Source: Spirochaetales bacterium (GTDB taxonomy: Bacteria; Spirochaetota; Spirochaetia; Sphaerochaetales; Sphaerochaetaceae). From it: a stretch of 35,907 nucleotides of DNA. Below the pieces are notes generated by a model. It was not told the DNA's origin, ran no database searches, and saw nothing but the letters and a program-made list of their open reading frames with translations. Shown one piece after another: positions 22,132 through 26,434 of this stretch; positions within the stretch are counted from its first letter, which is position 1, and each line of letters starts with the position of its first letter. The stretch is taken from contig JAFVDZ010000043.1 in assembly GCA_017478205.1 (NCBI GenBank), forward strand, positions 1 to 35,907, read 5' to 3'. The position numbers were made by a program, and so were the translations under genes.

Positions 22132-22155
22132 ACATGCCGGTAAAAGCCGGCATGT
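22132..22155 (+). promoter_or_regulatory. Strong stem-loop between dnaK and dnaJ
   Basis: ACATGCCGG (22132-22140) and CCGGCATGT (22147-22155) form a perfect 9-bp, GC-rich stem with a 6-base loop (TAAAAG). The following bases (TCGTCGTTGAG) contain no T-run, so this is probably not a full intrinsic terminator. It may protect the dnaK 3' end or reduce dnaJ expression relative to dnaK. The structure is seen; the role is inferred. Confidence 0.65.
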
Positions 22156-22175
22156 TCGTCGTTGAGAGGAATAAT

Positions 22176-23303
22176 ATGGCAAAACGTGATTATTATGAGG
22201 TTCTGGGGGTAAGTAAGGACGCAAGTGATGATGAGCTCAAGAAAGCTTATCGAAAGCTTGCTATGGCAAACCATCCAGATACACACCCAAATGACAAGGA
22301 AGCAGAAGAGAAGTTCAAGGAAGCAACCGAGGCCTATGATGTTCTCAGAGATAAGACAAAGAGAGCAAACTATGACCGCTTTGGCTTTGCAGGCGTAGAT
22401 CCTTCTCAGGCTGGTTTCAATCGTCAGGGATTCTCGGGCTTCTCAGGTTTTGAAGATATCTTTGGTTCCTCTGGTTTTGGTGACATCTTCTCACAGTTCT
22501 TTGGTGGCGGTATGAGAGGTGGTAGCTCTCAGGCAGGCCCTCAGAGAGGCTCCTCTCTTCAGTACAATGTTCAGATCTCCCTGCATGATGCCATCTTTGG
22601 AACGAAGGTCGATATTTCATATTCACATGACGTTGCCTGCGATACCTGTAAAGGCACTGGCGGTACAGGTTCTAGAACCTGTCCAACTTGTGGAGGCCGT
22701 GGTCAGGTCGCACATGGCGGTGGCTTCTTCCAGACTATAACGACCTGTCCAACCTGTCATGGCTCTGGTCACACAATCGAGAATCCTTGTTCTTCTTGTC
22801 ATGGCACAGGTGTCATGAGAAAGCAAGAGAAACTTGCAGTAACAATTCCTGTCGGTTCTGATGACGGAACACAGCTTGTTGCAAGAGGCAAGGGAAATGC
22901 AGGCAGAAACGGAGGTCCTTCTGGTGATCTTGTTATCGTAGTCAATGTAAAGGATGACAAGTATTTCATCAGAGAGGATAGAGACCTTCACCTTCAGGTT
23001 CCAATTTCCTTCATGCAGGCATCTCTTGGCTGTGATATCGAGGTACCTGTAATCGATGGTGGTAAGGTAAAGGTGACAGTTCCTGCTGGAATCCAGTCCG
23101 GAAAACCACTTCGTCTTCGTGGACGCGGGGTTCCTTCTTTCCGTGGCAGTCTAAATAGCAGAGGGGACATGTATTTGCATATTCTTGTTCAGACACCAAA
23201 GCTTGGAACTCTGGATATGAAGGCAAAGAAACTCATGAAAGAGCTGTCAGAGACGATTGGGGAAAACAATTCTCCAGAACCTATTCCATTTGAGAATGAC
23301 TGA
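22176..23303 (+). CDS. dnaJ: Hsp40 co-chaperone DnaJ
   Basis: This 375-residue type I DnaJ has an N-terminal J domain with HPD at residues 33-35, a Gly/Phe-rich linker (about 75-125), and a zinc domain with four CxxCxGxG repeats (CDTCKGTG, CPTCGGRG, CPTCHGSG, CSSCHGTG). The C-terminal substrate-binding domains follow. An in-frame ATG at 22134 lies inside the intergenic hairpin; GAGAGGA is 5 bases before the ATG at 22176, which gives the standard MAKRDYYEVLGV start. It stimulates DnaK ATPase. Confidence 0.97.
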   Translation: MAKRDYYEVLGVSKDASDDELKKAYRKLAMANHPDTHPNDKEAEEKFKEATEAYDVLRDKTKRANYDRFGFAGVDPSQAGFNRQGFSGFSGFEDIFGSSGFGDIFSQFFGGGMRGGSSQAGPQRGSSLQYNVQISLHDAIFGTKVDISYSHDVACDTCKGTGGTGSRTCPTCGGRGQVAHGGGFFQTITTCPTCHGSGHTIENPCSSCHGTGVMRKQEKLAVTIPVGSDDGTQLVARGKGNAGRNGGPSGDLVIVVNVKDDKYFIREDRDLHLQVPISFMQASLGCDIEVPVIDGGKVKVTVPAGIQSGKPLRLRGRGVPSFRGSLNSRGDMYLHILVQTPKLGTLDMKAKKLMKELSETIGENNSPEPIPFEND

Positions 23304-23382: not shown

Positions 23383-24126
23383 ATGGGCGAAAAGATTTAC
23401 GGTTTTCATGCTATAGAGGAGGCCTTGAAGAAGGCAGGTGCTGGTTCAACACTTTTTATCGTTCGCGGAGGCGGAGATAGAATTGCAGCACTTGAGAGAG
23501 AGGCTAGGTTTTCTGGTAAGGTTGCAGTCAGAAAGATTGCACGCGTCGAGATGGACAGAATGATGCCAGATGTGGACCATAGAGGGGCTGTACTCGATCT
23601 CGGTGGCCCAAGAAAGGGTTCATCAAGAATCCAGGAGATTTCTGTCAAGGACTTCTGTTCATCCCTTGGTCCAGATCAGGGAGCACTCGTTCTGATGCTC
23701 GATGGAATTACTGATCCACACAATCTGGGTGCTATTTTACGCTCTGCAGACCAGTTCGGTGTCGACCTTGTAATAATCCCAGAGAGAAGAAGCGTACAGG
23801 CAAATGAGACAGTCCAGAAGGTCTCTTCTGGTGCTGCACAGTATGTTCCTCTTTCTGTAGTTACAAATCTCAATAGAGAGATCGATACACTCAAGGACAA
23901 TGGTTTCTGGGTATACGGAGCAGATATGGCTGGTGAGAGCTCTTATGAGACCAAGTTTGCCAAGAGAAGTGTGATTGTAATGGGAAGCGAAGGTGATGGA
24001 ATTAGCCAGCTGGTCAGAAAGAAGTGTGATTACATTACAAGCATACCAATGACCGGACACATCGATTCACTCAATGTATCCGTTGCCTGTGGTATTCTTC
24101 TCTATGAGTTCAGAAGAGCTAAATAG
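23383..24126 (+). CDS. rlmB: 23S rRNA ribose methyltransferase of the RlmB/TrmH (SPOUT) family
   Basis: This 247-residue protein methylates 2'-OH of RNA, most likely 23S rRNA G2251 (E. coli numbering). It has an N-terminal substrate-binding domain starting YGFHAIEEAL, as in RlmB. The SPOUT knot motifs are DGITDPHNLGAILRSADQFG, VMGSEGDGIS and IPMTGHIDSLNVSVA. Other 2'-O-methyltransferases such as TrmH are possible, but the N-terminal domain favours RlmB. No Shine-Dalgarno site precedes the ATG. The 3' end overlaps the minus-strand purD-like gene by 8 bases. Confidence 0.9.
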   Translation: MGEKIYGFHAIEEALKKAGAGSTLFIVRGGGDRIAALEREARFSGKVAVRKIARVEMDRMMPDVDHRGAVLDLGGPRKGSSRIQEISVKDFCSSLGPDQGALVLMLDGITDPHNLGAILRSADQFGVDLVIIPERRSVQANETVQKVSSGAAQYVPLSVVTNLNREIDTLKDNGFWVYGADMAGESSYETKFAKRSVIVMGSEGDGISQLVRKKCDYITSIPMTGHIDSLNVSVACGILLYEFRRAK

Positions 24127-25408
24127 TGAACTCTTCATCAGTTTCGACAAAGAACTTGGTTCCGATGTCGTTTCTGTACCATGAACCCTGGAATTTTATC
24201 TTATCAATATAGCGGTAGACGTTCTCGTTTGCCGCTTTTATATTTACACCTCTACCAACAAGTGTGAAGTTTCTTCCTCCACTTGTCTTGAGTTCATCTG
24301 CTTCATCACCAATTACAGCTCCTGTGAACACCAATGGAAGAGTGTCGAAAGCATTGTGAAGGAGTAGTGGGTTTACTGGTTCTACCTTCTTGTTGGTGAC
24401 AGGATTCATCGGGTAGCCTTCGGATGCAATTACAACAGCAACTGTCGATTCATTTGTGAGCTCGAGAGTCTGCTGTGAAATCTTATCTTCCTTCATGGCC
24501 TTGAGGAGCTTAACTGCATCATTTCTCAAAAGTGGTACTATCGCCTGACTTGCTGGGTCGTTGAAGCGCATATGATAGTCGACAACATATGGAAGCTTTT
24601 CGTCTGTAACGACTATGGAGATAGTGAGAACTCCCTTGTAGGAAAGGCCCTCTACCTTCAGACCATAGATTGTTGGCTCTACGACATAACTCTTTATGTT
24701 CTGCTTGATTTCCTCTCCTGGCTGAATAGGACAGATTGAACCCATTCCGCCGGTTGGGAGACCATCGTGATCGCTTGTGGACATGTAGTCGCTTGTAAGA
24801 GGAAGCATTAGGTATCCATTGTTATCTACAAGGAGTGTGCAGGTTATAGAGAGGCCTTTGATGTGCTCTTCTAGAAGAACTGGTCCCTTTTTCAATAGCT
24901 CATGTGCAAAATTGAGGAGTGCTGAAGAGTCTCTTGAATCCAACATGACTCTAGATGGTGCGACAGTATTTGACTTTAGAACAAAGCGTTCGCCCTCATT
25001 GCGCTTCAAGAAGGCCTCTAGCTGCTCATAACTTTCAAATAGGTTTCTTCTTGGAGTGATGATATTGTGCCTATCTGTGAAGGCACGGGCAAAGGCCCTG
25101 TCACTTTCAAGTTTCAAGGCTCTAGTAGGAGTGCCAAAGGTGTCGATTCCTCTTTCGTTGAGATAATCGACGACACCGGTTAACAATGGGGCCTCTGTTC
25201 CGATGAAGACATGGTCTATCTTGAATGAGACACATGCTCTGTAGACCTGAACTGAATCTGCCGGATTGATATGTGGAAGATTTGTGGCAAACTTGCTTGT
25301 CGCTACATTTCCTGGCGCAATATAAAGGTCTGTGATAAGGTCAGATTTTGATAACCACCATGCTATAGCATGATCTTTTGCTCCAGAACCAAGAATAAGA
25401 ACACGCAT
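24119..25408 (-). CDS. PurD-like ATP-grasp protein (divergent phosphoribosylamine-glycine ligase)
   Basis: This 429-residue protein follows the PurD fold throughout: an N-domain with LILGSGAKDHAIAWWLS and FIGTEAPLL, an ATP-grasp middle with LPTGGMGSICPIQP (216-229), and a C-domain with TSGGRNFTLVGRG and GSWYRNDIG. Key sites differ from canonical PurD. The nucleotide loop, usually KADGLAAGKGV, reads KSNTVAPSRVM (145-155), and the metal-binding segment, usually EYNxRFGDPE, reads DYHMRFNDPA (277-286). It may be inactive or act on something else. A TTG at 25417 is in frame, but it abuts GGAGG; the ATG at 25408 has 9-base spacing. No other purine genes are nearby. Confidence 0.8.
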   Translation of the reverse strand: MRVLILGSGAKDHAIAWWLSKSDLITDLYIAPGNVATSKFATNLPHINPADSVQVYRACVSFKIDHVFIGTEAPLLTGVVDYLNERGIDTFGTPTRALKLESDRAFARAFTDRHNIITPRRNLFESYEQLEAFLKRNEGERFVLKSNTVAPSRVMLDSRDSSALLNFAHELLKKGPVLLEEHIKGLSITCTLLVDNNGYLMLPLTSDYMSTSDHDGLPTGGMGSICPIQPGEEIKQNIKSYVVEPTIYGLKVEGLSYKGVLTISIVVTDEKLPYVVDYHMRFNDPASQAIVPLLRNDAVKLLKAMKEDKISQQTLELTNESTVAVVIASEGYPMNPVTNKKVEPVNPLLLHNAFDTLPLVFTGAVIGDEADELKTSGGRNFTLVGRGVNIKAANENVYRYIDKIKFQGSWYRNDIGTKFFVETDEEFTI

Positions 25409-25418
25409 TTTTTCCAAC

Positions 25419-25430
25419 CTCCGTAAGGAG
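25419..25430 (-). promoter_or_regulatory. Hairpin covering the Shine-Dalgarno of the purD-like gene
   Basis: On the minus strand CTCC-TTAC-GGAG forms a 4-bp stem (5 bp with a U-G pair) that includes the GGAGG ribosome site of the purD-like gene. It would mask the site only on transcripts that read through from dusB, because the predicted internal promoter starts within it. Confidence 0.35.
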
Positions 25431-25474: not shown

Positions 25475-26434
25475 TTATTTCAATCCTTCGAGGGCAGCAA
25501 CGTATTCTTCTCTCTTTACAGCCTTCACGATTTCAGCCTTTACACGGCTTGCACCCTTGAGGCCCTTTACATATGCGCATACATGCTTTCTCATTTCATG
25601 TCCTGCAGTCTTTTCATCGAGGATTTCACACATGTAGTCATAGTGGGCAAGGATTGTCCTGATTATTTCATCTACTGTTGGTCTTGTATATTCCTTTCCT
25701 TCAAGGAGTGCTTTTGCTTGAGAGAATATGAATGGGTTGCCAATTGCACCGCGAGCAAGCATAACGCCATCACATCCTGTTTCAGACAGCATCCTGACTG
25801 CATCCTCTGCCGAAAAGACATCTCCAGAGCCGAAGATCTTTATATCTGTGTTTTTAAATTCGTCCTTGAGCGCCTTTATCTTTGCCCAGTTTGCAACTCC
25901 TGAGTACCCTTGGCTTCTAGTTCTTGCGTGTAGTGTGAGCAGTTTTGCTCCGTTATCGACACAAACGTGAGCAAACTCAAGATAGTTCTCACTTTCCATA
26001 TCCCAACCCAAACGGAATTTGACTGATACTGGAACACTGGAATTCTTTGTGATGAAGGAGACGATCCTTCCAATTTTGTCAGGCTCCTTCATCATCGCAG
26101 ACCCAGCCCCTGTCTTTACGACCTTTGGAACAGGACAGCCACAATTTATGTCTATCATTGTTGGTTCATATTTCAGGATGCTATCTAAAGAGCGTGTGAA
26201 GGGGTCTACATCTGGACCGAAGAGCTGCATGATCAACTCCTTTTCACCATCAAAACGCTTAAGAAGGTCAGCTGTCTTGTCATTTCCTCTGGCAAGACCC
26301 TCTGCTGAGACCATTTCGGTGACACAGCAGCCAGCTCCATATTCAGTTGCGATCCTTCTGAAGGCTCCATCTGTGTAGCCTGCAAGAGGTGCAAGGAAGA
26401 GATTGTTTCTGAAATGTATCTTGCCTATATCCAT
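25475..26434 (-). CDS. dusB: tRNA-dihydrouridine synthase (DusB type)
   Basis: This 319-residue FMN enzyme reduces uridines in tRNA to dihydrouridine. The TIM-barrel signature has LAPLAGYTDGAFR near the N-terminus, DINCGCPVPKV with the expected catalytic C100, K139 (VKFRLGW), HARTRSQGYSG with H169, and FGSGDVFS and MLARGAIGNPF for FMN phosphate binding. A helical tRNA-recognition domain ends the protein. DusB is the usual form in organisms with one Dus. No Shine-Dalgarno site precedes the ATG. It lies upstream of the purD-like gene on the same strand, 66 bases apart. Confidence 0.93.
   Translation of the reverse strand: MDIGKIHFRNNLFLAPLAGYTDGAFRRIATEYGAGCCVTEMVSAEGLARGNDKTADLLKRFDGEKELIMQLFGPDVDPFTRSLDSILKYEPTMIDINCGCPVPKVVKTGAGSAMMKEPDKIGRIVSFITKNSSVPVSVKFRLGWDMESENYLEFAHVCVDNGAKLLTLHARTRSQGYSGVANWAKIKALKDEFKNTDIKIFGSGDVFSAEDAVRMLSETGCDGVMLARGAIGNPFIFSQAKALLEGKEYTRPTVDEIIRTILAHYDYMCEILDEKTAGHEMRKHVCAYVKGLKGASRVKAEIVKAVKREEYVAALEGLK

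Follow-up and report, generated by a model that had tools for sequence, protein, structure and literature searches.

The locus and its purD-derived gene

The window analysed here is a 35,907-nucleotide stretch of contig JAFVDZ010000043.1 from a Spirochaetales bacterium of the family Sphaerochaetaceae. It carries a purD-derived gene (purD′) in a neighbourhood of conserved order:

22134..23303, plus strand: dnaJ, the next conserved flank gene
23383..24126, plus strand: rlmB (SpoU methylase), convergent neighbour of purD′ and, in other Spirochaetia, a flank gene of native purD as well
24119..25408, minus strand: purD′, 429 amino acids, with its ATG at 25408 and its stop at 24119
24272..24286, minus strand: TSGGR of the C domain, retained in purD′ (residues 375–379)
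25418..25422, minus strand: ribosome-binding site GGAGG of purD′, 9 nt upstream of the ATG
25475..26434, minus strand: dusB, upstream of purD′ (323 bits with the DusB model TIGR00737)

The purD′ frame comprises 429 codons and a stop and is uninterrupted on the minus strand; stops abound on the plus strand. Its protein matches GARS_N, GARS_A and GARS_C (PF02844, PF01071 and PF02843), all over cut-off, and narrowly passes the curated purD model TIGR00877 with 306 bits against a cut-off of 288, compared with 440 bits for a native spirochaete PurD. On the basis of this model and the three domains it belongs to the PurD family by descent. The original prediction had described an intact PurD architecture including the TSGGR and YRNDIG segments (the latter at residues 411–416), which is what we find.

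The AlphaFold2 model of the window protein has a mean pLDDT of 90.5 and the fold of a GAR synthetase (Z 50.2 and rmsd 2.1 over 412 residues against 2yw2), although such a fold match carries no information on the reaction catalysed. The three-domain architecture, length, fold and C-terminal motifs are those of PurD (TIGR00877; 2yw2, 3lp8, 2xcl, 2qk4, 1gso). The ATP-grasp proteins PurT, PurK and biotin carboxylase have this fold in common with the variant (Z of about 27–30) but are clearly more remote than PurD, with 11–16% identity.

Exchanged residues in the ATP, metal and glycine sites

We aligned 70 variants with 85 ordinary PurDs, using the numbering of the Aquifex structure 2yw2, and called a column switched if at least 95% of the ordinary PurDs share one residue and at least 90% of the variants another. 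Eleven columns were switched: R11K, E12D, S103D, K104R, G152S, K153R, G264S, E277D, N279H, G283N and E286A. All except G264S lie in ATP-, metal- or glycine-binding segments or in the SGGREH loop of the N domain. The altered positions of the window protein, all on the minus strand, are:

25373..25378, minus strand: KD instead of RE in the N-domain SGGREH loop (residues 11–12)
25097..25102, minus strand: DR instead of SK (Aquifex S102, K103; residues 103–104)
24947..24961, minus strand: phosphate loop, APSRV instead of A(A/G)GKG (residues 150–154)
24848..24850, minus strand: S instead of Aquifex E192, an ATP contact (residue 187)
24782..24790, minus strand: DYM instead of D(H/Y/F)K, with the D212 equivalent kept and the K214 equivalent lost (residues 207–209)
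24617..24619, minus strand: S instead of an invariant G (residue 264)
24551..24580, minus strand: metal and glycine site, DYHMRFNDPA instead of E(Y/F)NxR(F/M/L)GDPE (residues 277–286)

These exchanges are close to fixed. In the N-domain loop, R has become K in 70/70 and E has become D in 69/70 variants, against RE in 85/85 ordinary PurDs; in the phosphate loop, S152 is present in 70/70 and R153 in 67/70 variants, where all 85 ordinary PurDs have G and K. The metal segment shows D277, H279, R281, D284 and P285 in every variant, N283 in 69/70 and Ala or Ser at 286 in 70/70. E283 and N285 we take, from general knowledge of ATP-grasp enzymes, to be the metal ligands of PurD. E277D and N279H are each seen in every one of the 70 variants and in none of the 85 ordinary PurDs, a change that is beyond chance. 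The position of Aquifex E192 is E in 85/85 ordinary PurDs and mostly P, H, S or A in the variants. Both APSRV and DYHMRFNDPA align in register, with no shifts, with the motifs of solved PurD structures; the catalytic residues are therefore not displaced, which rules out that they are shifted but present elsewhere. The orthologue alignment proposed with the original prediction thereby confirmed its reading of the two segments, in which an AAGKG-type loop has become APSRV and EYN-x-RFGDPE has become DYH-x-RFNDPA.

In PurD, ATP is contacted by Lys103, Lys143, Glu185, Glu192 and Lys214, the last being an ATP/Mg contact, and glycine by Asp212, Arg287 and Glu292 (PMC8880213). Nearly all variants retain the equivalents of Glu100, Lys143, Glu185, Asp212 (as Asp or Glu) and Arg287. 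The Lys103 equivalent is Arg in 63/70, the Glu192 and Lys214 equivalents are replaced, and the Glu292 equivalent is Ala or Ser in 70/70. Thus, among the hallmarks of a GAR synthetase, the A(A/G)GKG loop is missing (the positions of G150 and K151 are switched in nearly all variants), the ExN of the metal site is D and H throughout, and the glycine and ATP contacts are each incomplete. As a family signature, AAGKG, ExNxRxGDPE, SK and SGGRE of ordinary PurD correspond to APSR(V/I), DxHxRxNDPA, DR and SGAKD in the variant. The cleft of the window protein keeps K145, E180, E101, D207, R281, D284 and TGGMG, and its new residues K11, D12, D103, R104, R153, D277-x-H279 and N283 are polar or charged and near-invariant.

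Distribution of the variant

A search of 150 relatives detected the variant in all 15 other members of the host genus, at 62–90% identity, and nearly throughout the host family Sphaerochaetaceae (family f1; 82 of 91 genomes). The altered motifs are near-invariant in the 70 homologues, which come from Sphaerochaetaceae and three related Spirochaetia families; other Spirochaetia in the alignment carry ordinary PurD motifs. Judged by this distribution, the motif change is a signature of a whole clade and not a peculiarity of the window protein. We also scanned 84,980 genomes for the motifs. Among the matches listed, carriers included Sphaerochaeta, Bullifex porci, Candidatus Ornithospirochaeta and a Pleomorphochaeta MAG, the nearest named record was a Sphaerochaetaceae MAG with 90% identity to the window protein, and none from outside Spirochaetota had variant motifs, the motifs there being ordinary wherever readable. 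Many genomes are MAGs, and single absences may be assembly gaps (e.g. G016, G034, G044); in G034 the variant was not seen, but dusB lies at a contig end (L205). Our search of the open-access literature found no paper on a variant PurD in Sphaerochaeta or on dusB–purD linkage.

A more diverged form occurs in a genus (g13) with genomes of about 1.2 Mb (L043 and L044 in G027 and G043). Its branch in the tree measures 2.5 changes per column, LLNMKTRFSDPSA replaces its metal segment, and in G027 it lies away from dusB.

Ancestry of the locus

Canonical Spirochaetia carry the operon tatD-dusB-purF-purM-purN-purD-(purE) facing rlmB-dnaJ, with gene identities checked (G095, G112, G132, G117, G099 and G105; similar in G124, G139, G136 and G107), and variant genomes carry (tatD)-dusB-purD′ facing rlmB-dnaJ. 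Since the flanks are the same with and without purFMN, purD′ is the positional orthologue of purD, and the adjacency to dusB is the scar of the missing genes. In a PurD tree (quick search, midpoint rooting), the variants form one clade with 100% support, adjoined first by intermediates and then by native spirochaete PurDs, and the extra PurDs of variant-bearing genomes fall among other phyla. Tree and position indicate that the variant descends directly from spirochaete PurD, and these sequence comparisons show the gene itself to be the native, vertically inherited spirochaete purD. The original prediction had noted that the gene sits with dusB and not with purine genes. The adjacency is real; as a new association or a clue to function it does not stand, the native operon being itself headed by tatD-dusB. 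Since the native tatD-dusB-purFMND operon explains the placement, we dropped it as primary evidence.

The intermediates, which we take to be Sediminispirochaeta-like (the family identities of the numbered genomes are likewise our own assignments), occur in G114 and G134 within tatD-dusB-purD′ facing rlmB-dnaJ, as in the variant. Their PurD-like protein already has the loop KKNGLSRWKA, ExH and SGAKE. Unlike the full variant, it retains RFGDPE, the Lys214 equivalent and Glu283 and shows only some of the switches. In G114 purFMN is already missing from this locus, the protein has ExH and an altered loop but keeps GDPE and the Lys214 equivalent, and an ordinary PurD lies in a separate pur cluster. 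This state suggests an order of events. The comparison shows that the operon lost purF, purM and purN (and purE where present) in the ancestor that Sphaerochaetaceae share with three or more related families. The stranded purD switched at eleven positions that are fixed elsewhere, all but one belonging to known catalytic motifs, with the Sediminispirochaeta-like genomes as an intermediate between native purD and full variant. Ordinary purine genes with a foreign-type PurD are present in some descendants only.

Purine genes in the host and its family

In the host genome, which is 97.5% complete, profile searches returned no match for purM, purL or purE, no purF match near cut-off and no recognisable purN, only a weak formyltransferase-type match; the absence of the pathway rests on these model searches. 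A single GARS_A match rules out an ordinary second PurD elsewhere in the genome. The search for a canonical PurD and other pur genes, suggested with the original prediction, thus recovered none of purF, purN, purL, purM, purE or a second PurD.

Across the family, purM is present in 33 of 91 genomes, and 32 of these 33 encode an ordinary, foreign-type PurD as a separate gene. The other 58 genomes lack purM, and 51 of them keep the variant. Counting related genomes as independent, ordinary PurD tracks purM (Fisher p of about 9e-24) and the variant shows no association with it (p 0.48). Co-occurrence with PurF and PurN/L/M, as expected of a GAR synthetase, is lacking in the host genome, and 51 genomes of the family keep the gene without purM. 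The variant is independent of the de novo purine pathway, and ordinary PurD follows the pathway.

Several further observations concern purine genes. The host encodes a stand-alone AICAR transformylase-type protein (G000:C59:2881-3666; PF01808, model 75–311) in the absence of purF/N/L/M/E, a set-up that would be consistent with recycling of the AICAR made in histidine synthesis. Many Spirochaetia show PF01808 matches as two adjacent frames (model 1–62 and about 70–311; e.g. G097:C1:1085140 and 1084775, G122:C1:1149848 and 1149486), a pattern that suggests a split PurH. Moreover, a second type of purine cluster, common to several families, contains a divergent, motif-intact PurD (GGKG, EYNARFGDPE; L173-L179 and L183 in G036, G046, G029, G119, G138, G020, G093 and G129). 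It is distinct from the type in G061, G017, G007 and others, and the two types imply at least two separate replacements.

Selection on the variant

Pairwise dN/dS of the variant is 0.02–0.06 at dS of at least 0.4, with dS near saturation in several pairs. The number of columns conserved at 95% or more is 94 in the variants and 90 in native spirochaete PurDs, two sets that are comparably diverse (mean identity 0.55 and 0.52). As many conserved columns at similar diversity point to constraint that was exchanged and not relaxed. The original prediction held that the complete, stop-free frame reflects a maintained protein and proposed looking for purifying selection among orthologues; both the frame and the strong purifying selection bear this out. 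A pseudogene or sequencing error is ruled out by dN/dS and by the motifs common to relatives.

A probably repurposed cleft and its possible functions

The proposal that the protein lost its ligase activity or changed its substrate or role is strongly supported by the replacement of ATP, metal and glycine residues, and is also backed by the lack of a pathway or second PurD in the host, the ordinary PurD of pathway-bearing genomes and purifying selection. From this we infer that the purD′ protein is almost certainly no longer a GAR synthetase, and ligand binding in the former PurD cleft appears highly likely. We consider it probable that the protein is a repurposed native PurD that still binds a ligand in its remodelled cleft, likely as an enzyme with a new substrate and less likely as a pseudoenzyme. 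The cleft would have been re-tuned, not destroyed: several catalytic residues are kept and the new ones are polar or charged and near-invariant, while the Glu that binds glycine, one Glu in contact with ATP and the ATP/Mg Lys are gone. In the preferred reading its ligand is phosphorylated or resembles a nucleotide, and D277/H279 probably bind a metal. That it binds such a ligand and carries out a different reaction, independent of de novo purine synthesis, has about an even chance. A similarly balanced case can be made for a new enzyme family, in which native spirochaete PurD, after its operon was dismantled, was repurposed with a D-x-H / PSR-loop ATP-grasp site for a new reaction near-universal in Sphaerochaetaceae. 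That the charged residues of the former catalytic centre are invariant argues for catalysis; with several ATP contacts lost, an ATP-grasp mechanism in its original form is less likely. Because K145, E180 and E101 are kept and most switches are conservative (R/K, E/D, K/R), the protein could conceivably retain some ATP-dependent ligase function, including a measure of GAR synthetase activity. Neither a partner gene nor a substrate emerged from the analysis, the link to dusB being inherited.

As a second choice, the protein could possibly be a PurD descendant that binds a ligand, regulates or serves as a scaffold and catalyses nothing. Precedents exist for retired ATP-using enzymes with new roles, and the replacement of the ATP loop, the Mg/ATP lysine, one ATP-contacting Glu and the glycine Glu would suit such a pseudoenzyme. 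However, the charged constellation is invariant across sequences down to 35% identity, which fits catalysis at least equally well, and no link to a regulator or partner was found. A role as a DusB partner in tRNA modification is improbable: dusB lies directly upstream on the same strand in most loci examined, but it also precedes the native purine genes of other Spirochaetia, so that the neighbourhood is inherited. In L114, L115 and L116, tatD-dusB is on the strand opposite to the variant gene, so co-transcription is not conserved everywhere, and the two genes are unlinked in G027 and L091. Furthermore, dus is found in 150 of 150 genomes, including those without the variant, which leaves a co-loss comparison without contrast.

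Continued GAR synthetase activity, in which substitutions in the ATP, metal and glycine sites would compensate for one another, is very improbable. The TIGR00877 score, the PurD fold and the K143, E185, E100, D212 and R287 equivalents kept in nearly all variants are in its favour, yet the equivalents of Glu292, Glu192 and Lys214 are lost, the host has no PurF to supply PRA and no PurN/L/M/E to use GAR, the host and 50 relatives keep the variant without purM, and pathway-bearing genomes carry another, ordinary PurD. Decay of a frame left open by chance after the surrounding pathway genes disappeared is already refuted by the dN/dS values and can be dismissed in view of the presence of the variant in most of the family, its lineage-specific fixed residues and its good ribosome-binding site.

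Implications for Sphaerochaetaceae

Sphaerochaetaceae are non-spiral spirochaetes common in animal guts and anaerobic digesters. Databases label the variant "PurD", yet its job in these spirochaetes is very probably a different one. Automatic annotation is apt to call the gene purD, and since the curated model names its product a GAR synthetase, metabolic reconstructions of the family likely contain a false purine step. Ordinary PurD, the intermediate, the full variant and the further diverged form make up a clean natural series, with the residues concerned well defined, that shows how a housekeeping ligase is retooled when its pathway disappears or gives way to one from outside.
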